DNA of 23,421 nt, taken from positions 1-23,421 of the IMG/VR virus record IMGVR_UViG_3300030329_000908. The stretch is one strand, 5' to 3'. Under the pieces are notes generated by a model. The model did no database searches. It was not told where the DNA came from and saw nothing but the letters and a program-made list of their open reading frames with translations. Made by a program: the position numbers and the translations under genes. The DNA comes from a virus. Positions 2,265 through 23,421 of this stretch are shown piece after piece (the stretch's first letter is position 1; the number at the start of each line of letters is the position of its first letter).

Positions 2265-3269
2265 CTAGTAAATTAAATCTTTCCATAATGTTCTAAAAGC
2301 CAACTCGCAAGTATCTGGCACTACACCATTTCCAAGCAATCTTAATCTGTCCACTCTGTTGGTAGTTGGGTCCAGTTTACTGGCAATCCCATTAATTGTT
2401 CTACCCAACTTGGGTTTAACCTGTACTTTGGAGGTTCTTCCATCTCCACTGCATCTCTCAGCTTCGCCCCAAATGTTTGGTTGCTCGACTTGCGCAGACT
2501 CTTGAATCCATCTTTTGTTTTCAGAGTTTCTATTCTCCCCCCCTCCGCATCTGACGTTCTTGGAGTTGGAAATGACTCTGGGTTCTTCCCATTCAAATTG
2601 TTCCTCGTTAGGTCTTGCTGGGTATTTACTGACCCATGAACTTGCTCTCCTAGATTGTGTTTCCCCCTGTCCCAGGTTGCCGCCCTTGAGTCTTGTTCCT
2701 TCGGAGTTCCCCAACTTTGCAAGGATGAAGATTCTTTTTCTAAGGTGTGGCGCACCAATTTCAGCCGCGCTGAATGTTCCCCACGCACACGAATAACCTC
2801 TGCTTTCCAAATCTCTAAGGACATAGAGGAGTACCGATTCTCCGTCTGCTGTTTTTCTACTAACGATTCCTTCAACGTTTTCCAATAAGACATATCTTGG
2901 TCTGCAAAGGGTAATGCCTTCTGATATGTAAGGGTAGATGTGCCTGGGGTCTTCAACTCCTTGCTTTTTTCCTGCGACGGAAAAGGGTTGACATGGGAAT
3001 CCCGCAGAGAGGATGTCCACGCATCCACGAAACTTTCTGTAAGGGAAGGCTTTAACGTCCGTAAAAATAGGAGCTTCATCCACTTTACCTTCTTCAATCT
3101 TTGAAGCCAGGTTTGCGATTGCGAAGGCTTCGATTTCCACATAACCGATTGTTCGCAAAGATGGGAAAACTCTTTTAAGTCCTCGTCCGATTCCATCGTA
3201 TCCTGTACACAAACATAAGTGGTTAACTTGCTTTTCGGTAATGACATTGGTGTTATAATCATTTTTCAT
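2265..3269 (-). CDS. dcm: DNA (cytosine-5-)-methyltransferase
   Basis: This 334-residue enzyme transfers a methyl group from S-adenosylmethionine to C5 of cytosine in DNA. A motif I-like segment (LCLCTGYDGIGRGL) lies at residues 18-31. Motif IV, GFPCQPFS, carries the catalytic C93, and motif VI, ENV, is at 130-132. Motif VIII, GAPHLRKRIFILA, covers 172-184, and motifs IX-X, RVDRLRLLGNGVVP, cover 305-318. The stretch between motifs VIII and IX (about 185-300) would hold the target recognition domain; its sequence gives no specificity I can read. The start overlaps the end of the upstream resolvase gene by 11 bases. In a phage it may protect DNA from host restriction. A second long frame lies inside this gene (see the 2342-3262 entry). 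Confidence 0.93.
   Translation of the reverse strand: MKNDYNTNVITEKQVNHLCLCTGYDGIGRGLKRVFPSLRTIGYVEIEAFAIANLASKIEEGKVDEAPIFTDVKAFPYRKFRGCVDILSAGFPCQPFSVAGKKQGVEDPRHIYPYISEGITLCRPRYVLLENVEGIVSRKTADGESVLLYVLRDLESRGYSCAWGTFSAAEIGAPHLRKRIFILAKLGNSEGTRLKGGNLGQGETQSRRASSWVSKYPARPNEEQFEWEEPRVISNSKNVRCGGGENRNSENKRWIQESAQVEQPNIWGEAERCSGDGRTSKVQVKPKLGRTINGIASKLDPTTNRVDRLRLLGNGVVPDTCELAFRTLWKDLIY
2342..3262 (-). CDS. Overlapping +1 frame inside the methyltransferase gene, methylase-associated motifs
   Basis: A 306-codon frame is open across more than 90% of the cytosine methyltransferase gene, shifted +1. It begins with ATG 3260-3262, only 7 bases after the main start. Its product contains VRGEHSARLKLVRHT, then WGTPKEQDSR and RGKHNLGEQVHG, then FPTPRTSD, and ends with LNPSWVEQLMGLPVNWT. 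From memory, WPTP...D and LNPxWVEWLMGFPxGWT are recurrent motifs in proteins annotated as phage methylases. Here they fall on the same DNA as motif VIII and the region just before motif X of the main frame. It may be a translated second product, or a fossil of an ancient frame switch between two methylase lineages. No ribosome site of its own is seen. Expression is unproven. Confidence 0.35.
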   Translation of the reverse strand: MIITPMSLPKSKLTTYVCVQDTMESDEDLKEFSHLCEQSVMWKSKPSQSQTWLQRLKKVKWMKLLFLRTLKPSLTESFVDAWTSSLRDSHVNPFPSQEKSKELKTPGTSTLTYQKALPFADQDMSYWKTLKESLVEKQQTENRYSSMSLEIWKAEVIRVRGEHSARLKLVRHTLEKESSSLQSWGTPKEQDSRAATWDRGKHNLGEQVHGSVNTQQDLTRNNLNGKNPESFPTPRTSDAEGGRIETLKTKDGFKSLRKSSNQTFGAKLRDAVEMEEPPKYRLNPSWVEQLMGLPVNWTQLPTEWTD

Positions 3270-3786
3270 TTATTTTATTATTGTTTATTCTACCCCATTC
3301 GGCTATATGACAAGAATCTGCATAACCATCAGCTGTCCTAATAGGCTTTTCAAAGAGAATTAATTCACCATGTGCCTTCTTGGCTTGCCTTATTGATTCT
3401 TCTTTAGTCCAATTTGTATCTTTAATTATGTCTCCAAACAAATCTTTTTGCCAGAGCTTTGGCGGTATAGGCGTAAACCTGCTTTCGCCAACAACATCAA
3501 GGCAAATTGCGTGAAGCCTACCGTTGTTAAATCCGCTAGTATAAGCCGAAACATTCCCCATGTGATAGCTAGCGGATTCTTCCACCACTATCCTTTCGAT
3601 ATCAAAACATTGAAGCCATTTCTTTAATGCTTTAATGTCTAACACACTTCTAGTTTTCTTTAATCTGTAGCATGGTACAGCCTTAATGTGTGGTAAATCC
3701 CTAGAACCTATGAGGCTACCGAACTGGTCGATAGCCACACAAGCACCATTAATACCTGTATCAATTCCTATGAAGTGGTTATTCAT
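3259..3786 (-). CDS. RuvC-like Holliday junction resolvase
   Basis: The product is 175 residues from ATG 3784-3786, chosen because GGAG stands six bases before it; an in-frame ATG at 3796-3798 lacks such a site. It shows the RNase H-fold resolvase pattern. The first strand, HFIGIDTGINGACVAID, carries D9; strand four, ERIVVEES, carries E69; the C-terminal helix, TADGYADSCHIAEWG, carries D153 and D157. These acidic residues match the metal-binding set of RuvC-type junction endonucleases. It would cut branched replication or recombination intermediates before packaging. It lies between a LexA-type DNA-binding gene (8-base overlap) and the methyltransferase (11-base overlap), and acts in the same pathway as the annealing protein at the head of the operon. 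Confidence 0.82.
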   Translation of the reverse strand: MNNHFIGIDTGINGACVAIDQFGSLIGSRDLPHIKAVPCYRLKKTRSVLDIKALKKWLQCFDIERIVVEESASYHMGNVSAYTSGFNNGRLHAICLDVVGESRFTPIPPKLWQKDLFGDIIKDTNWTKEESIRQAKKAHGELILFEKPIRTADGYADSCHIAEWGRINNNKINEK

Positions 3787-3997
3787 CAGACACTCCACTG
3801 GTTAATTTCACAGAACGCCACCCTGTACTACGCTCAACAACTCCCTTCCGTTCAAGATTGTTTAGCATAGCGGTAACAGCTGGAGGCGTAACGCCTAGAC
3901 ACCCTGCTATTTCCTTATGAGTTGGCACTTTACCAATGATTGTAAACCCTTCCAAAACACGAACGAGTTTCTTTTGTTTGTTAGTTAGCTTAACCAT
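3779..3997 (-). CDS. LexA-type winged-helix DNA-binding protein without a protease domain
   Basis: A 72-residue protein that matches the outline of the LexA N-terminal domain. LTNKQKKLVRVLEGF forms the first helix, followed by GKVPTHKEIAGCLGV (helix-turn-helix entry), TPPAVTAMLNNLERKGVVER (recognition helix) and a short wing (STGWRSVKL). The Ser/Lys autopeptidase half of LexA is absent, so it cannot self-cleave in the SOS manner. GGAGG lies six bases before the ATG, one of the best ribosome sites in the operon. It is the likeliest transcription regulator visible in the window; palindromic DNA at 5628-5642 is a candidate target, but no binding evidence exists. Confidence 0.75.
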   Translation of the reverse strand: MVKLTNKQKKLVRVLEGFTIIGKVPTHKEIAGCLGVTPPAVTAMLNNLERKGVVERSTGWRSVKLTSGVSDE

Positions 3998-15286: not shown

Positions 15287-17856
15287 TGGCAGAAATACCA
15301 GAACCAAATATACAGGCAACTAATATACCAACAGGTGGAGGGGCTCAAGTTAACCTTAACTTTGTAGCTCCTGATAACGCATTTGCTAATTTATCCAAAA
15401 CTCTTGCTGGTGCTAGTCAAACTTTTTTAAATTTTAAAGATTTAGAAGATAGAGAAAATAAAAGTAAAGAAGTTTGGCAAGAACAAATTAAATCAATTAA
15501 AGGTTTAAAAGACACAGGCGATTTATCACAAGACGAAGTTGACAAAATTGTTAGGGAAGCAAATGCTAAAGCTCAAAAGGAAGGAATAATTAGAGCGCAT
15601 GAAAATTGGTCTACTATGAAAGCTGTTGAGGAAGAAAGGTCAAAACTTTTACACAATAAAAAAACAGCTTACTTTAAAATGCACATGGGTTCTTTGACAA
15701 ATCCTGATGAAAATTTTGCAAAGACTTATGAGGAAATAGAAGAAATGTTTGAAGAGGAGTACGCAGAAACTCCAGTGGCAACTGACTCTCAAGGGAATGA
15801 TATTTTTGCTGGAACAGAGGGAATGACTCCTATGCAGTTAGTAACGTATTCAAACAGCAGAACTGCTCACAAGGCATCTATAGAAGAGGCTATTGAGTTT
15901 AAAAAAGACCAACGCTCAAAAGAGGCTACAGCAATTAGGGTGCAATCAAACATTGCTGAGCTTTACAAAATGATTGATAACACTGGAGAAGGAGTAACTT
16001 CGGAAGTTATGACAATGCCTAGTATCGACCACAAAACTGGTAAAAGATTTGAAAGCTATGATGCTCAATTATTATCTGCTTATTTAAGAGGTGAAATTAT
16101 TAGGTCAGCAAATTTAGAAGAAGCATCAGAAATGGCTCAAAGCAGGTCAGAAATGTTGGATGAAGAATTAAAAGCATGGGAAGAGATAAATCAAAAATCT
16201 GCTATATATCACCCAAGAACTGGAAGACCTATTTACCATGATGAAGACGGTGTTCCTTATTCTGAAATTTCTGAAACTTACTTTTCTCCTCAAGCAGAAT
16301 CTCTTTTGGCAATGTTGGAAGAGCAAGCTGCTCAGCTGTATGACGCAGATATAGAAAATCCTAACCAAGTTTTAATGACATCTATCGAGTCTTTAGCAAA
16401 TGAAATTATTGATAATGCTTCTTTAGGAGATAAAACAGCCTTAACAAAGGTAAATGATTTAATATATGTTGTTCAGAGAGGATTTAGCCACATGACTTTA
16501 AATGGAGAAAAAGTTATGTTTGCGCCAGTGGGAACAAAGTCTCACGAAACTTTAGATGCAATAAGAGCAAGCGCAACAAAAAGATTTGAAGACTCTCAAA
16601 AACTTTTAAGCAGTTCTATCGACGAAAGCTTAGATAAAATAATTAAAAAGTTTAGAACGACTATAAGAGGTGGTCAGCCAGACAACTCTAAAAAAACACA
16701 AACTTATGAGGATTGGGTAACAGAGCAACGTGGAATTGCAAGTGATGAGGCAAACGAAATTAAAGGTTTTAGCCCGTCAGGACAAGCTAAACTTTTAAGA
16801 GATTTAAAAACAATTTCTGACAATTTAAGTTTTGGCGATGAATCACAAAAGGGCATTACATATTTTAATGCACAAAGCCTAGCACTAAGAAAAAATCTTT
16901 CACTTACGGAAGATAATTTTCAAAAAGAGCTAGACAAAATTCTTCATTCAGACGATGGAGACTTGTTAACTCAACAGCAATATGACGACTTAACTAAGAT
17001 TGCCGAAGACAGGCTTAAGGCAAATAAGGATATAAATGGCGAATTAAAAGGTACAGACTTACAAGACATGCAAGTTATTAATAGTAAAGTTACTGCCTAT
17101 TCAGACATTGACAAAGCGGACAGAGCAATAAATGTAAAAGTAATAGATATAAAAACAGAAGCCGATACTAAATTTTTCTTGACCGAAGCGGAGTCTGAAA
17201 CTTTTGATATAGTTTCAGCAGACAATGCCGAAATAGTGTCTAAAGAAAGCACTAATATTTACGACGCTCTTATTGGTGATTCAGTTTATAAGAAAGAAAA
17301 TCTTGACGACTTTAAATATCTTGACGAGAAGGGTCGACCTAATAAAGAATTTAGAACATATTTGCTTCGCATCGGGGTAGATAAAAGTGAAATAATGTCA
17401 ATGGTCGATACTTTTAAAATGTTAAAAAACGGAATTAATTTTAAAGGTATGAGTGTTAAGGGAAAAAGCACAGCTTACAGTAAGGCTTTAGATGGATTAG
17501 AAACATACATGGCTTACGCTTCTGTTTACGAACAAACATTAGACTTAAGAGAAGAAGAATATGACAAGATGTTTTTCGAGGACGAAATATTAAACAATGC
17601 TGTTGACGCTACTGATAGCGATTTAAGTAGAAGTACAGAAGAAGGTGAAGATAGTAACGCGACACTTAGACTTAAAAATAGAGAAGAAATACTAAAAGAA
17701 AGGATTCCACTTCAATTAACTCCAGAACAAATTGAAGCGCAAGGAGCTGGACTAGGTGGCATACAAGACCCAGTTGATGGCAAAGTTGTCGACAATAGAC
17801 CAAAAAGCGTTTCAGAAATAATGAAACAAACGGCAGAAAATAGAAAAAGAAGATAA
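15286..17856 (+). CDS. Internal virion (ejection) protein, gp15-like
   Basis: An 856-residue soluble, acidic, mostly helical protein between the gp14-like and gp16-like genes (T7 gp15 is 747 aa). The N-terminus carries a Gly/Pro-rich start followed by SKTLAGASQTFLNFKDLEDR, and a long alpha-helical body extends from about 60 to 790. There is no membrane segment and no catalytic motif. The identification rests mainly on position, size and composition. In T7 gp15 forms, with gp16, the tube that crosses the periplasm and takes part in pulling DNA into the cell. TAATG overlaps join it to both neighbours. Confidence 0.78.
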   Translation: MAEIPEPNIQATNIPTGGGAQVNLNFVAPDNAFANLSKTLAGASQTFLNFKDLEDRENKSKEVWQEQIKSIKGLKDTGDLSQDEVDKIVREANAKAQKEGIIRAHENWSTMKAVEEERSKLLHNKKTAYFKMHMGSLTNPDENFAKTYEEIEEMFEEEYAETPVATDSQGNDIFAGTEGMTPMQLVTYSNSRTAHKASIEEAIEFKKDQRSKEATAIRVQSNIAELYKMIDNTGEGVTSEVMTMPSIDHKTGKRFESYDAQLLSAYLRGEIIRSANLEEASEMAQSRSEMLDEELKAWEEINQKSAIYHPRTGRPIYHDEDGVPYSEISETYFSPQAESLLAMLEEQAAQLYDADIENPNQVLMTSIESLANEIIDNASLGDKTALTKVNDLIYVVQRGFSHMTLNGEKVMFAPVGTKSHETLDAIRASATKRFEDSQKLLSSSIDESLDKIIKKFRTTIRGGQPDNSKKTQTYEDWVTEQRGIASDEANEIKGFSPSGQAKLLRDLKTISDNLSFGDESQKGITYFNAQSLALRKNLSLTEDNFQKELDKILHSDDGDLLTQQQYDDLTKIAEDRLKANKDINGELKGTDLQDMQVINSKVTAYSDIDKADRAINVKVIDIKTEADTKFFLTEAESETFDIVSADNAEIVSKESTNIYDALIGDSVYKKENLDDFKYLDEKGRPNKEFRTYLLRIGVDKSEIMSMVDTFKMLKNGINFKGMSVKGKSTAYSKALDGLETYMAYASVYEQTLDLREEEYDKMFFEDEILNNAVDATDSDLSRSTEEGEDSNATLRLKNREEILKERIPLQLTPEQIEAQGAGLGGIQDPVDGKVVDNRPKSVSEIMKQTAENRKRR

Positions 17857-20800
17857 TGAAACAAGACCCAAACAACCCAACTGTATTAGAGTTTTTAAAG
17901 TCTCAGCGTAAGCGCATGGGCATACCTGAATCAGAAGCTCAAACTTTTAACGCTAACATGTATTTGTTTTCTAATGCAGTTAGGGGAATAGAATCAGATT
18001 ATAGACTTGATGCAAAAAGCCCAACAACTACAGCAAAGGGTGTTTATCAATTTACAGATGATAGCGTAATTACAGCAAAAAACAGAATGAAAAACATGGG
18101 CATAGACCAGAAGTATATAGATGCTATGCCCCAAGACCCTAGGCAGTGGAATGATGAGCAATCTGACATGGCGTTTTATGCAAACATGTTTGGTCAAACA
18201 GGCTCAGATAATTTTTTAAAGAAGATAGCTAAAGGAGATTCTGGTGCAATGAAAGAAGCGTATTATAAATTTCATCACACAAATCCAGATAAAAAAACAA
18301 TAGCTAGAACAGACAAATTTATTAATGCGGACACAATAACAGCAGCAAACAACATGATAGGTGTTAACCCTATGATGGGAGCTATGGGTGGAATGGGAGC
18401 AGCTATGGGAAGTGGAGGAACAGAAGGAGCAGAAGAGACAGGTCTTCCCAAAATGATTCCCAATATAAACAATTTACAAGAACAAAAAACTTATGCTGAT
18501 GCTATAACTCCACCTAAAGGGTTTAACCCATTTCAAGGAGCAGAACAAGAGCAAGTTAGTGGTGAGCCATTATTGTCTCCAGAAGCTCAGAGTGCAGCAG
18601 AAGTGGCTGGCATGGTAGGCTTTGGTGAGCCAGAAGAAGTAGGACAAGACATAGAACAAGATGTTCAAGAAACAAATGCCGCAGTTCAAAAATTAAAAGA
18701 AAGCAGAGGAGTTGGTTTTGAAGACGCAGAGCCACACGTTCAAAAAGCGTTTCAAGAATTTATAAATGAAAGAGAGCAAGAAGGAATTGTTGACCCAAAC
18801 TATACTCCTAAAGTTTATCTATCAGCCCATAAATGGATTGAACCACTACTAGGAAACTACAACCCAAACAGTTCATCTAATGGCATTCTTGAATTGTTAG
18901 AAAGGGTGCATGGCGAGACTCTTTATGATGCAAACAATGACGTTACATTAAGCCAAGAGTCTTTAAGTTATTTTGTTAGGCAATTAGAAGAACAAGGATT
19001 TTTTGCAGAAAATGGTTATCTTGAAAAACTACAAAAATACAAAGGTTTTTCTATACCAAAAAATTTAGATAACGAAACTATTATTTCTGCTTTATTGTAT
19101 CAAGACCTTTCATTTAAGCATGGTTCTTGGCAAGTAGAAAATATGCGTTACGCAGATGCTCAATCTTCTGCAAATCCATTAGGAATTAATAATCCTGATT
19201 ATATTAAATACATAACAGAGCACAAAACTGATGATGTGTTTACTAATATTAAAAATGGATTAGAAATTCATAGGGGATACCAAACTGGGAACATTCCCAA
19301 CCCTATGTTAAAGCCAGATGGAAGTGGGTTTGAAGACTTTACAAATTCACAAAAAGAAGAACAAGCAAACAAGCTTTTAACTTACAGATTGTTTGATGGC
19401 TCTGGAAAACTATCAGAATATAGAAGATATTTTAAAGACCCTTCCAAATTGGGAACAGTTGAGTGGATTGTTGAGGGCATAGGAAAATCTATGGCTAGAG
19501 CTTTCAATATGTTTGGACTAGAATATGAACCTATTGAGTTTGGAGATGACCCAGAATTAGGTGCTGGCTGGGAAATAGCTGGCTACACTATACCGACTGT
19601 TGCTACTGCTTTATTTACAAGAGGATTCGGCGGTGGAGCTTTAATGACAACAGGAGTTGCTGGAATGACAGACGCGTTGGTGCAGATGGCTACTCCTAGA
19701 GAGGAAAATTTATTTAACTTATTGTCTTATGCGGGAGAGGAAAGAGGATTTTCTTCTTTAGTACCAGACAATTTATTTGGAGATATTATTGCTCCAGTTG
19801 CAAGCGTTTTAGACGATGTTGCTGATAGCGATTTAATAGATGCGTTTACCATTAAAGAAGGAAATGAAAATATTCATAACGCTATTATTGGAAGTGTTGA
19901 GGGGTTGGCTGTGGGAACATCAGTTGGTGTTGCCATATCTGCGACTCTCCCATGGATTGTTAAAGCCGCATTAGTTGGCGGTAGCGTTGGTTCAGGAGTT
20001 GTAAAGGGGATTAAGATGTCTCCGCAAGCTGTTTCTAAATTAGCGAAAAAAGCACAAAATAGCTTTTTGTGGACAGAAGTAGAAACGCAAATGTATAAAG
20101 ATGCAATACAGGAAGCAAACGGCAGACTGGTTAATTTTTATGCTGGGGTTCCAGCTAAAGACATAGTAAAAGTTCTTAAAGCTATGGCAAAAGGTTTGTC
20201 AAAAGTTGTTAAGCTTAGAGGTCAAGGTAAAAAATATACAAGCACAGATTTTCACGAAGTAGTTAAGCAAAACGAAATTGAAGCTGACAACATTATTAAA
20301 AGCATTAAAGAAAATAAATATAAAGATGTTGATGATATAGAAGAAGCTATTGACAATCTTGACAAATCAATTTCCGAAGAAGCGAAAAAAGGAAATTTTA
20401 ATGTTCCTAGACCTATTAAAAAACTTACTAAAAAAATACTTGAGGCAAGAAAAGAATTAAATAAAGTTCGTGAAGACCTTACAGGTGAGTCTAAGGTTGT
20501 TAAAGAAAGTGAAGTAGGAGAACCAGAAAGAGGTCAAATATATGAAGACGCTTTAGAGTGGCTAGGAACTTCTCAACATGCTAGAGAGCTTAGGCAAATC
20601 TCAGAAGGTGATGAAGACATGCTTGATATTGTCAACCTTAGATATGAAAGGCAAGGCGAGCCCATACTTAAAGATATGGAAGATGTTAGGTTAAGGCTAG
20701 AAGATTTAGATGGCAAAGCAAAAACTATTAATGATAGATTTATGGCAAACCATGGTCGAGGTGTTGCACAAAACGGAATGGATGGTTATAGGTTTAGAAG

Positions 20801-23421
20801 TGAGGCAGAAGCAGAATTAAAAATTTATGAATACCTAGAAAGGAATTATGAATATTCTGATGCTTTAGGTGCTCCAAGCAAGGAGGTAGATGTAGAAATT
20901 AATTTGCCAAAAGCTAGTGAACCAGAAATACAAATAAGCGTTGCGCCTATTGACTCTATGAATATGAGCCAATTACGAAAATACATTTCAGACAATAACA
21001 TTGTAGATGCAGATGGCAACTTAATTAAGGGAACTTCTAAAGACGTTTTAAGAAAAAAAATCAGAAATGCCGAGTCTGCGTTCAAGCAAGCTGAAAAGAA
21101 AAAAGAAGTTAAGGTAGAGCCAGTCAGTAATAAGCAACCATTATCTTCTCCTAAAGAGTTTGAGGCTGAAATGAAGGAGGCGGAAGCTATTGAGGCAGAT
21201 GAATTAGATGAATTAAGTGATGTTGAGTATGTCGTTGACGACTTAGATGACTTGGATGATTTAGGTGATATTGATGCAGACGTAGAAAGATTTGATTTAG
21301 ACCCAGAGTTTAAAGAAGATTATAACGACGCAAGAATAGAAGACGCAGAAGAGAATGTTATTTTAGGCAAAGGTGGCGAGCTTGCTAAGAAACAATTAAA
21401 TCAAAGAATGTCTGAGTTTATTAAGTCAAGGCAAGCATATATAGGAGCACTATCTGGCGGAACATCTAAAGACAAAAAAGAATTATTAGCTGCTACTTTA
21501 AGAAGACATTTTGTTATGCTTCAAAGAGCTCTGGCAAAAATGGACGCTATTAATGGTAATGCTACGCAAACTGGTTATATGGCAAGAACAGTTCTTCCTC
21601 CTAAACAATCTTCGGGTGATTCAGCACTTTTAGATTGGCACAGGAAAGGACTTAATAAAGGTTATCTAAGCCCTAGAAACATTTTATCCTTAACAGAAAA
21701 ATATCATATAGGTAAAGATGGAAAGGAAATAGTTACCCAACATGCTAGGTCAGACAAAGGCTTGCAAGCTATGATTGATAGGTTTAATGAAAGCCCTATA
21801 TTAAAAACAAGAAGTATTCATAGACCTTTAACCCTTAATCCTCTTTCTGGTCAAAAGTTTTTTATGTCTTTTCCAAGACTTGCTCAGATTATAAAAGACC
21901 AAGGAAATGCTGGTTTAGTTTCTGGTTTTGGAACACAGTTTGCTGCAAGTGCTGGCTTGGCTTTGAAAAAGCCTAGAACTTATTTTGACAGTTTGGCTTT
22001 ACATGCAATGGTACTTGGAGGAGCAGATGTTGCAAGATTTAGAAAACAAGTTTTAAGAATAGAAAAAGCTATAAAAAAATCTGCTGTTAAAAATGAATCT
22101 TTGTTAAGAAGCAAGGGTGAAATAATTAAAGAGTTAAGGGTAGACCATAACATGCCTGACAATAAACCTATTAATTTAGTTCAAAGATTGTTTATACCAT
22201 CTGCTGACAATGTAGATATTGTTAGAAATATTGAAGAGCGTGGTGTTGATATAGATGATTTAAAACTAGATGAAGGCCAAGAGCCTTTAATGGTTGAATT
22301 GTTTGGCAAAGAATATGAAGTTCCAGTTTTTGGTTTAACATCTGGTGGTTTTGCTGCGGCACAACAAAGTGGAAAGGCAGCAAGAAAATATTGGATGATG
22401 GGAGTTTCTCTGAATGAAGCTATGGCAAGAGTTGTTATGTCTGGATTCATTGATAAATATACAAAAAACTTTGGCGGCAACTTACACACTAGAGAGCTTT
22501 TAAAAGAATTAATTTCGACTAAGATTTATCGAGGAGGAGAGTTAGAAAAATCTGTTGATGACTTGGAAATAACAGAAATGTTAAGAGCTTTAAGAGAGTG
22601 GAATGCTGGAAGGTCTGCTGGGGTGTTTGGTTTTAATGAACCCCAAGACTCATGGATGAAAACCAGAATGGGATATTGGTTAGACAAAAAAGAAGTTCCT
22701 GAAAAGCCAGAAGACTGGTGGTCAGAGCAAGCTGTAGAAAGTTGGAACAGGTGGCAAAACATAAACAGTTTATCGCCGAAAGAGTTTAAGCTTACTAGGG
22801 ATAAACTAGACATGATGTATGATGCTGACCAAGGTGCAAGAAGTAGAATGGAAGAATTAACTTTGCAACATGAAACAGATGCAGTTGCTAGTGCTTTCCA
22901 TGAGCTTTCTAAAAATCCTTGGACTGGTTTGTTTGCTAGGTTTGGAAAAACATCTGCTAACACATTTACTATGGGCATAGAGTCTACTCCACTATTTGGA
23001 CATTTTTGGTCAAGGCTTATTAAAAATAAAGGTAGGCAAACTCCAGCAGATATATTTAATGCGTGGGCAAAACAATCTGCATTTACAGGAGCTTTGCTTT
23101 TGGCTGGAACAATATATACTGTTACAAACAAATACAACAAGCGCAACCCAAAGAAAGAATTTAAAGAACAATTTAGTATTAACGAAAGGGGCGAAGTGGT
23201 TTTAAAAACTAAAGAACCAATGTGGAAAATACAAGAAAAGTGCATGGATAGATTTATTCATAATCCAGAACTTTTAGATGCAATGGTAGAAAGACATAAC
23301 ACTATTTACAACTTAGAGGGAGACAACGCTATAAATTCAGACGAGATGTTGGAAATTTTGTGGCAAGATTTAAAACCAGACAAAGGTGAAGCTACTATGA
23401 CATACGACAGGGCTGGCTTTG
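17856..23421 (+). CDS. Giant internal virion protein with transglycosylase domain, gp16-like (3' partial)
   Basis: The frame is open from ATG 17856-17858 (in a TAATG) to the window edge, 1855 codons without a stop; T7 gp16 has 1318. The N-terminal domain has the lytic transglycosylase signature GIESDYRLDAKSPTTTAKG followed by VYQF, with E46 as the likely catalytic acid. It would cut peptidoglycan as DNA is ejected. Hydrophobic segments at about 572-612 and 678-718 and near 1736-1755 could enter the inner membrane. Residues about 1035-1072 resemble a SAP-type helix-extended-helix (MSQLRKYISDNNI...GTSKDVLRKKI), and about 1113-1155 is strongly acidic. The rest is charged and helical. It would act as the last and largest ejected core protein. 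The end lies outside the window. Confidence 0.88.
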   Translation, partial: MKQDPNNPTVLEFLKSQRKRMGIPESEAQTFNANMYLFSNAVRGIESDYRLDAKSPTTTAKGVYQFTDDSVITAKNRMKNMGIDQKYIDAMPQDPRQWNDEQSDMAFYANMFGQTGSDNFLKKIAKGDSGAMKEAYYKFHHTNPDKKTIARTDKFINADTITAANNMIGVNPMMGAMGGMGAAMGSGGTEGAEETGLPKMIPNINNLQEQKTYADAITPPKGFNPFQGAEQEQVSGEPLLSPEAQSAAEVAGMVGFGEPEEVGQDIEQDVQETNAAVQKLKESRGVGFEDAEPHVQKAFQEFINEREQEGIVDPNYTPKVYLSAHKWIEPLLGNYNPNSSSNGILELLERVHGETLYDANNDVTLSQESLSYFVRQLEEQGFFAENGYLEKLQKYKGFSIPKNLDNETIISALLYQDLSFKHGSWQVENMRYADAQSSANPLGINNPDYIKYITEHKTDDVFTNIKNGLEIHRGYQTGNIPNPMLKPDGSGFEDFTNSQKEEQANKLLTYRLFDGSGKLSEYRRYFKDPSKLGTVEWIVEGIGKSMARAFNMFGLEYEPIEFGDDPELGAGWEIAGYTIPTVATALFTRGFGGGALMTTGVAGMTDALVQMATPREENLFNLLSYAGEERGFSSLVPDNLFGDIIAPVASVLDDVADSDLIDAFTIKEGNENIHNAIIGSVEGLAVGTSVGVAISATLPWIVKAALVGGSVGSGVVKGIKMSPQAVSKLAKKAQNSFLWTEVETQMYKDAIQEANGRLVNFYAGVPAKDIVKVLKAMAKGLSKVVKLRGQGKKYTSTDFHEVVKQNEIEADNIIKSIKENKYKDVDDIEEAIDNLDKSISEEAKKGNFNVPRPIKKLTKKILEARKELNKVREDLTGESKVVKESEVGEPERGQIYEDALEWLGTSQHARELRQISEGDEDMLDIVNLRYERQGEPILKDMEDVRLRLEDLDGKAKTINDRFMANHGRGVAQNGMDGYRFRSEAEAELKIYEYLERNYEYSDALGAPSKEVDVEINLPKASEPEIQISVAPIDSMNMSQLRKYISDNNIVDADGNLIKGTSKDVLRKKIRNAESAFKQAEKKKEVKVEPVSNKQPLSSPKEFEAEMKEAEAIEADELDELSDVEYVVDDLDDLDDLGDIDADVERFDLDPEFKEDYNDARIEDAEENVILGKGGELAKKQLNQRMSEFIKSRQAYIGALSGGTSKDKKELLAATLRRHFVMLQRALAKMDAINGNATQTGYMARTVLPPKQSSGDSALLDWHRKGLNKGYLSPRNILSLTEKYHIGKDGKEIVTQHARSDKGLQAMIDRFNESPILKTRSIHRPLTLNPLSGQKFFMSFPRLAQIIKDQGNAGLVSGFGTQFAASAGLALKKPRTYFDSLALHAMVLGGADVARFRKQVLRIEKAIKKSAVKNESLLRSKGEIIKELRVDHNMPDNKPINLVQRLFIPSADNVDIVRNIEERGVDIDDLKLDEGQEPLMVELFGKEYEVPVFGLTSGGFAAAQQSGKAARKYWMMGVSLNEAMARVVMSGFIDKYTKNFGGNLHTRELLKELISTKIYRGGELEKSVDDLEITEMLRALREWNAGRSAGVFGFNEPQDSWMKTRMGYWLDKKEVPEKPEDWWSEQAVESWNRWQNINSLSPKEFKLTRDKLDMMYDADQGARSRMEELTLQHETDAVASAFHELSKNPWTGLFARFGKTSANTFTMGIESTPLFGHFWSRLIKNKGRQTPADIFNAWAKQSAFTGALLLAGTIYTVTNKYNKRNPKKEFKEQFSINERGEVVLKTKEPMWKIQEKCMDRFIHNPELLDAMVERHNTIYNLEGDNAINSDEMLEILWQDLKPDKGEATMTYDRAGF

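Follow-up and report, generated by a model that had tools for sequence, protein, structure and literature searches.

Both polypeptides of the EcoHK31I methyltransferase are required in vitro, and its small subunit, of about 176 aa, is read from a different frame of the DNA that encodes the large one. M.EcoHK31I is composed of two polypeptides, the larger carrying motifs I-VIII and X together with a predicted recognition domain and the smaller carrying motif IX only, and M.AquI is split such that motifs I-VIII are located on one polypeptide and IX-X on the other (PMC3404938). EcoHK31I has been called naturally split (PMC3439449). In the current study, we examined a locus of an uncultivated phage (IMGVR_UViG_3300030329_000908) in which two long frames overlap on one strand, and we consider it likely that a single gene encodes here, in its two frames, a C5 cytosine methyltransferase made of two polypeptides like M.EcoHK31I, the assignment of both products to one enzyme being inferred without expression or activity data. 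To our knowledge, long overlaps between genes on the same strand have rarely been described for double-stranded DNA phages, and of two such frames annotation programs usually retain just one. No prior description of such an overlap in phage methylases was found in the literature, a search that was confined to open-licence papers and is weak evidence of absence.

The window, by which we mean the whole stretch of DNA that was analysed, spans positions 1 to 23,421 of this virus record, whose length is 23,421 bases, and genes for head-tail adaptor, capsid and tail lie elsewhere in it. The features of the locus, with the evidence on which they rest, are the following.

2265..3269, minus strand: frame A, a C5 cytosine methyltransferase of 334 aa (PF00145, PHROG_363, motifs I-VIII and X)
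2342..3262, minus strand: frame B (+1), 306 aa, PHROG_1008 family, the proposed second subunit with recognition region and motif IX
3267..3269, minus strand: start codon ATG of frame A
3260..3262, minus strand: ATG at which frame B starts, 7 nt 3' of the A start; it shares bases with the stop codon TGA (3259-3261) of the preceding gene, as ATGA
2709..3236, minus strand: A residues 12-187, folded catalytic domain with motifs I-VIII (PCQ, ENV, GAPHLRKR), as predicted by AlphaFold2 and Foldseek; A dN/dS about 0.1-0.25
2364..2708, minus strand: A residues 188-302, a spacer from motif VIII to X, mostly of low confidence in AlphaFold2; A NS/SS 0.72-0.80 with strong constraint in B
2268..2363, minus strand: A residues 303-334, motif X region (RVDRLRLLGNGVVP; AlphaFold2), mostly past the stop codon of B and used as internal control
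2729..2818, minus strand: B residues 149-178, a helix confidently predicted by AlphaFold2, overlapping the motif VIII region of A
2630..2713, minus strand: B residues 184-211, W-x-TP cassette 1, WGTPKEQDSRAATWDRGKHNLGEQVHGS (alignment, cassette count)
2447..2572, minus strand: B residues 231-272, cassette 2, FPTPRTSD...FGAKLRDAV (alignment, cassette count)
2366..2422, minus strand: B residues 281-299, motif-IX-like RLNPSWVEQLMGLPVNWTQ (alignment, AlphaFold2, comparison with Dcm and HhaI)
3259..3798, minus strand: upstream gene, Holliday junction resolvase-like, PHROG_1770, overlapping both start codons (profile match)

Frame A possesses the catalytic domain of a C5 cytosine methyltransferase, as attested by its matches to PF00145 (E 1.9e-31) and PHROG_363 (E 3.2e-49), by Foldseek and by the presence of PCQ and ENV. 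The chain of A does not itself supply motif IX and a recognition domain between VIII and X, since a scan of A with a profile of B ends detected no motif-IX-like window and the VIII-X segment combines low model confidence with weak constraint. The locus thereby resembles M.EcoHK31I (YGGCCR), in which the large chain carries I-VIII and X and motif IX lies on a second chain; judged by motif placement, both features recur in the window. Encoding in overlapping frames, as in EcoHK31I, applies to the window and to 163 of the 164 loci considered below. EcoHK31I is a bacterial restriction-modification enzyme whereas the window is of phage origin, and its recognition domain was predicted, not measured, in the large chain, while here the constraint between VIII and X and natural truncations point to B. 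Like M.AquI, the phages Catdawg and ArV1 have a split after motif VIII, in partly overlapping ORFs; the small subunit of AquI contains both IX and X, whereas the window keeps X in A and its overlap spans nearly the whole gene.

The preliminary description of this DNA had reported, inside the methyltransferase gene (3269 to 2265), a +1 frame open for 306 codons, and this frame, one base ahead of A and open over 306-307 codons, lies far beyond chance expectation: among 20,000 synonymous-codon shuffles of A the open +1 length averaged 95, with a maximum of 280, and none reached 307 (0/20,000), while frame +2 of the window gene contains 27 stops. Likewise, 0/1,000 synonymous shuffles matched the openness of B in each of 24 relatives. 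In dcm of E. coli K-12, a single-chain enzyme, the +1 frame has 14 stops and its longest open run is 88 of 473 codons. The peptide pairs that had been quoted as sharing the same bases, A GAPHLRKRIFILA over B EHSARLKLVRHT and A VKPKLGRTINGIASKLD over B LNPSWVEQLMGLPVNWT, were found where they had been placed. Chance or base composition as the cause of the open frame was ruled out by these shuffles and by 51 loci gathered through A, and sequencing error was ruled out since independent contigs and GenBank phages alike have B open.

A family with the pattern LNPxWVEWLMGFPxGWT, named in the preliminary description, does exist and corresponds to PHROG_1008, to which B of the window has a significant match (E 7.9e-9; 1.4e-10 in a second profile search) and B proteins of cultured phages match with E values of about 1e-18 to 1e-74. 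PHROG_363 (A) and PHROG_1008 (B) are thus, as had been suggested, two database families that constitute +1 readings of one DNA lineage; they bear the same library label, only 'DNA methyltransferase' in the case of PHROG_1008, and are not stated to be two frames of one DNA. The PHROG_1008 profile is itself composite, its positions 36-282 matching frame B and 286-321 frame A in the window, such that frame-B sequence is joined to motif X and one profile matches two frames of a dual-coding phage gene. Profile searches yielded no Pfam or NCBIfam match for frame B and no profile that links B to a known methyltransferase domain, and a search of solved structures with B gave no credible match.

The relation between the frames was constant. 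In all 164 distinct loci with both profiles B is A+1, the profile matches overlapping in 163 and only the ORFs overlapping in ArV1, and B without A was never found among them. Bacterial loci detected by PHROG_1008 alone, in 12 of 369 genomes of one class sample, all carry A one frame behind. When distinct loci were gathered with the A profile, 49 of 51 had a +1 ORF over >80% of A, the longest +2 ORF averaging 60 codons; in the remaining two (L121, 2882-4039; L165, 2302-3135) B is interrupted at one shared position, which separates an N-terminal part from the core, and each piece is open. In cultured phages B often starts at about this position, and from these two observations we infer that the core of B comprises about residues 125-306 and that the N-terminal part is a subfamily addition. 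Selection bias from gathering through B was considered and set aside because loci gathered through A behave alike, though the A profile was itself built from B-found loci: relatives were first collected via B and the A profile derived from those, and the counts do not give the share of dual-coding genes among all phage methylases.

PHROG_1008-matching B frames occur in +1 of methylase genes in Paenibacillus, Acinetobacter, Escherichia, Lacticaseibacillus, Pseudomonas, Vibrio and Synechococcus phages; the partly overlapping ORFs of Catdawg and ArV1 also match this family, and similar +1 ORFs are present in Klebsiella, Xanthomonas, Komagataeibacter, Porphyromonas, Bacteroides and Microcystis phages. 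In Escherichia phage K1H ('C-specific methylase' and 'Mte8-like protein') and Paenibacillus phage Bloom (gp56/gp57) both frames are annotated, as overlapping +1 CDS homologous to A and B, although B is shorter there and starts inside A, and no relation between the products is proposed in the annotation. A search of bacterial genomes with the single K1H protein returned 5 loci only, and a peptide-pattern search for close relatives of frame A found none, the patterns being too specific. The preliminary description had named three refuting conditions, namely a lack of genuine homologues of the alternate frame, frequent stop codons among close relatives and no drop in synonymous change in the main frame, and none of them held: B homologues are real ORFs (and annotated overlapping genes in K1H and Bloom), interruptions of B are very rare, and in A synonymous change falls across B and recovers past its stop.

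The suggestion of dual coding under selection in both frames was supported by tests of similarity, codon position and substitution class. Across 72 non-redundant genes (pairwise identity <62%), with synonymous shuffles as the null, B-frame (+1) similarity per column was 1.418 as against 0.243 +/- 0.011 for the shuffles, while the motif X columns past the stop of B, the internal control, had a +1 similarity of -0.26 versus -0.17 when shuffled, i.e. no excess. Mere relatedness of the sequences is ruled out as the cause of the similarity in B, given that the same genes show no excess past its stop. Differences per codon at A positions 1/2/3, scored in 51 independent close pairs, were 0.146/0.082/0.136 within the overlap and 0.107/0.065/0.279 after it. 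Isolated substitutions from 41 pairs were sorted by their effect in both frames (kappa 2), and the observed/expected values within the overlap were 5.5 for changes silent in both frames, 1.57 for those silent in A only, 1.87 for those silent in B only and 0.23 for those silent in neither; past the stop of B the corresponding values were 1.11, 3.37, 0.04 and 0.24. The shared DNA is therefore under purifying selection in both frames, and it is the internal control past the stop of B that makes this unambiguous. An RNA-structure constraint was excluded as it would not yield frame-specific substitution classes.

Regional ratios (NS/SS for A, SN/SS for B) revealed where each frame is held: A 0.10 and B 0.26 in the motif I region, 0.22 and 1.01 in the motif IV region, 0.25 and 0.26 from V to VIII, 0.80 and 0.21 between VIII and IX, and 0.72 and 0.16 in the IX region, with constraint in A only beyond the stop of B. 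Single ratios are rough because doubly silent changes are few (4 to 37 per region); second estimates (NN/NS, NN/SN) run in the same direction except in the motif IV region, where the second estimate for B is 0.33, so that B cannot be called constraint-free there. In the spacer, changes that are silent in B but alter A are favoured (NS 2.73 versus SN 0.71). Constraint is thus handed over between the frames, motifs I-VIII and X being held mainly in A and the VIII-X region, including motif IX, in B. The spacer of A is not function-free, as a stretch WPARPxExQxEWEEPR is conserved in A within it.

The AlphaFold2 model of A alone agrees with this regional pattern as an independent prediction: confidence is high for most of 12-187 and for 303-334, whereas 187-302 are mostly predicted with pLDDT <50, and in Foldseek only about 175-195 columns of the model align to HhaI, HaeIII or DNMT1. 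B alone is modelled weakly (mean pLDDT 56), with confidence at a helix at about 141-178 and at 281-306. This poor prediction could reflect disorder rather than folding upon binding and counts against a reading of two subunits.

The C-terminal end of B, RLNPSWVEQLMGLPVNWT, is near-invariant among relatives, with the pattern LNPxWVEQLMGLPxGWT. When a profile of 78 B ends was run along Dcm of E. coli K-12, the best window was by a wide margin the true motif IX, RLTPRECARLMGF / RLTPRECARLMGFEAPG, a score attained in 35 of 5,000 shuffled Dcm sequences; HhaI has KLHPRECARVMGYP / KLHPRECARVMGYPDSY at the same place. The location of motif IX on the second chain is, on sequence grounds, supported with moderate strength, the motif being short. 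Natural variants place the same segment in other contexts. The methylase of mycobacteriophage Fushigi is a single chain that includes the B-type motif IX in its own frame, immediately ahead of motif X, whereas in Catdawg (L201, 848-1799) and ArV1 (L202, 906-2376) A ends shortly after motif VIII and the overlapping B ORF carries IX and X, an AquI-like split. In L010-L012 (2955-4247) and L033 (2952-4208) a stop interrupts A directly behind VIII and leaves motif X to an A-frame ORF of its own, while B is uninterrupted, an arrangement that possibly represents a three-piece enzyme. As a separate observation, the front part of B persists in Fushigi (L192, 1471-2517) as a +1 ORF (1736-2056, LLPTPLARD) even though the B-type motif IX now stands in frame A, which looks like a frame merger. 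It had further been proposed that a frame switch would change the recognition region of a methylase in one step; this was not demonstrated, and the in-frame fusions of Fushigi, Catdawg and ArV1 are the only hints of it.

The start codons of the two frames lie close together. Overlapping starts of the form ATGTG (ATG for B, GTG for A) are present in 47 of the 72 relatives, another 10 share the arrangement of the window, with the ATG of B 7 nt behind the ATG of A, and the closest A/B pair is within 13 nt in 72/72; a Shine-Dalgarno-like stretch was seen just 5' of the B start in 34/72. A single ribosome landing site could, from this proximity, feed both frames.

Since the window fits the plan of EcoHK31I, except that recognition is placed in B on account of the selection pattern, the model of A and the natural truncations, we propose a dual-frame two-subunit methyltransferase. 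Frame A would yield the catalytic subunit, with motifs I-VIII, a spacer that is mostly disordered when modelled alone, and motif X, and frame B, started a few bases from A on the same stretch of mRNA, would yield a second polypeptide whose core (about 125-306) would provide a long helix, the W-x-TP cassettes, taken as the target-recognition region, and motif IX. The two would then assemble into an active enzyme, as published for M.EcoHK31I. The sequences themselves establish dual coding, selection in both frames and its hand-over, the fixed frame relation and where the motifs lie; translation of B in the phage, its binding to A and methylation of DNA by the complex are inferred. The preliminary description had spoken of two methylase-like proteins in overlapping frames, of which the overlap stands and the notion of two separate methylases probably does not; the products are probably two subunits of one.

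It remains conceivable, if unlikely, that B is a real, selected overlapping gene with a function of its own outside methylation, such as anti-restriction or regulation, and that A is a complete methyltransferase alone. Dual-coding selection is silent on function and B has no recognised domain, yet such a reading leaves A nearly devoid of amino-acid constraint and of a confident fold between VIII and X, and it sits poorly with a B-type motif IX that Catdawg and ArV1 join in frame to X, and Fushigi to a whole methylase, and with the failure to find B without A in any of the 164 loci (0/164). Even less credence can be given to the possibility that B is made mainly by ribosomal frameshifting from A to B after motif VIII, a fusion of I-VIII, recognition region and IX forming a second form of the enzyme; Fushigi does join an A-type N-terminus and a B-type motif IX in one chain, at least as an ORF, but B has its own start beside that of A in 72/72 relatives, mostly as ATGTG, B sequence upstream of motif VIII is itself constrained, and the fused product in the window would be without motif X.

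That the open +1 frame might be a by-product of the A protein sequence, its codon usage or RNA structure, with no second protein, has scarcely any standing left, and in the form of chance or composition it is already refuted. The G+C content of the gene, 0.445 against 0.386 in the window, would make stops rarer, but shuffles in which the protein and its codon usage are preserved do not reproduce the open frame in any of the relatives tested, the excess of NS over SN changes in the spacer (2.73 versus 0.71) is a pattern that RNA structure would not produce, and dcm of E. coli K-12 is not spared its 14 stops in the +1 frame.

One stretch of DNA of 300-500 codons serves two proteins in phages of both Gram-negative and Gram-positive hosts, and on the preferred reading, a dual-coding gene for two subunits, a widespread phage gene has been only half seen until now. 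Should B be a subunit, many of the genes annotated in phages as 'DNA methyltransferase' would yield an incomplete enzyme when cloned alone, and methylation assays would return false negatives. The locus also offers a clean natural case of two frames dividing structured and unstructured protein segments between them. New in this study are the scale across phages, the obligate overlap, the hand-over of selection, the overlapping starts and the shuffled W-x-TP cassettes.

By a simple pattern count across relatives, the middle of B contains from none to six W-x-TP cassettes, and the same cassette, e.g. GTPKEQDS, occupies ordinal positions one to five in different relatives. Their number and order vary as if units were shuffled with the A frame riding along (L006, L016, L034, L037, L039 and others). 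Variable recognition regions occur in multispecific phage C5 methyltransferases, and the B cassettes are reminiscent of these, their function, including that of setting the target, being inferred. We would suggest, as no more than a tentative generalisation, that there is a phage-borne class of C5 methyltransferases that is obligately dual coding, with the catalytic parts in one frame, recognition and motif IX in the other and overlapping starts, in which cassettes serve as exchangeable units of recognition, their reordering altering which sequence is methylated while A, for which the region is a spacer, tolerates it.

Several minor observations concern the surroundings of the gene. Resolvase genes near the methylase are also present in Bloom and in Synechococcus phage Yong-M2-251. 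The higher G+C content of the dual-coding gene (2265-3269) relative to its surroundings recurs in most relatives. At the other end of the window, an ORF of at least 1855 codons (17856-23420, plus strand) runs off the end of the record and is preceded by podovirus-like head-tail adaptor and tail genes.
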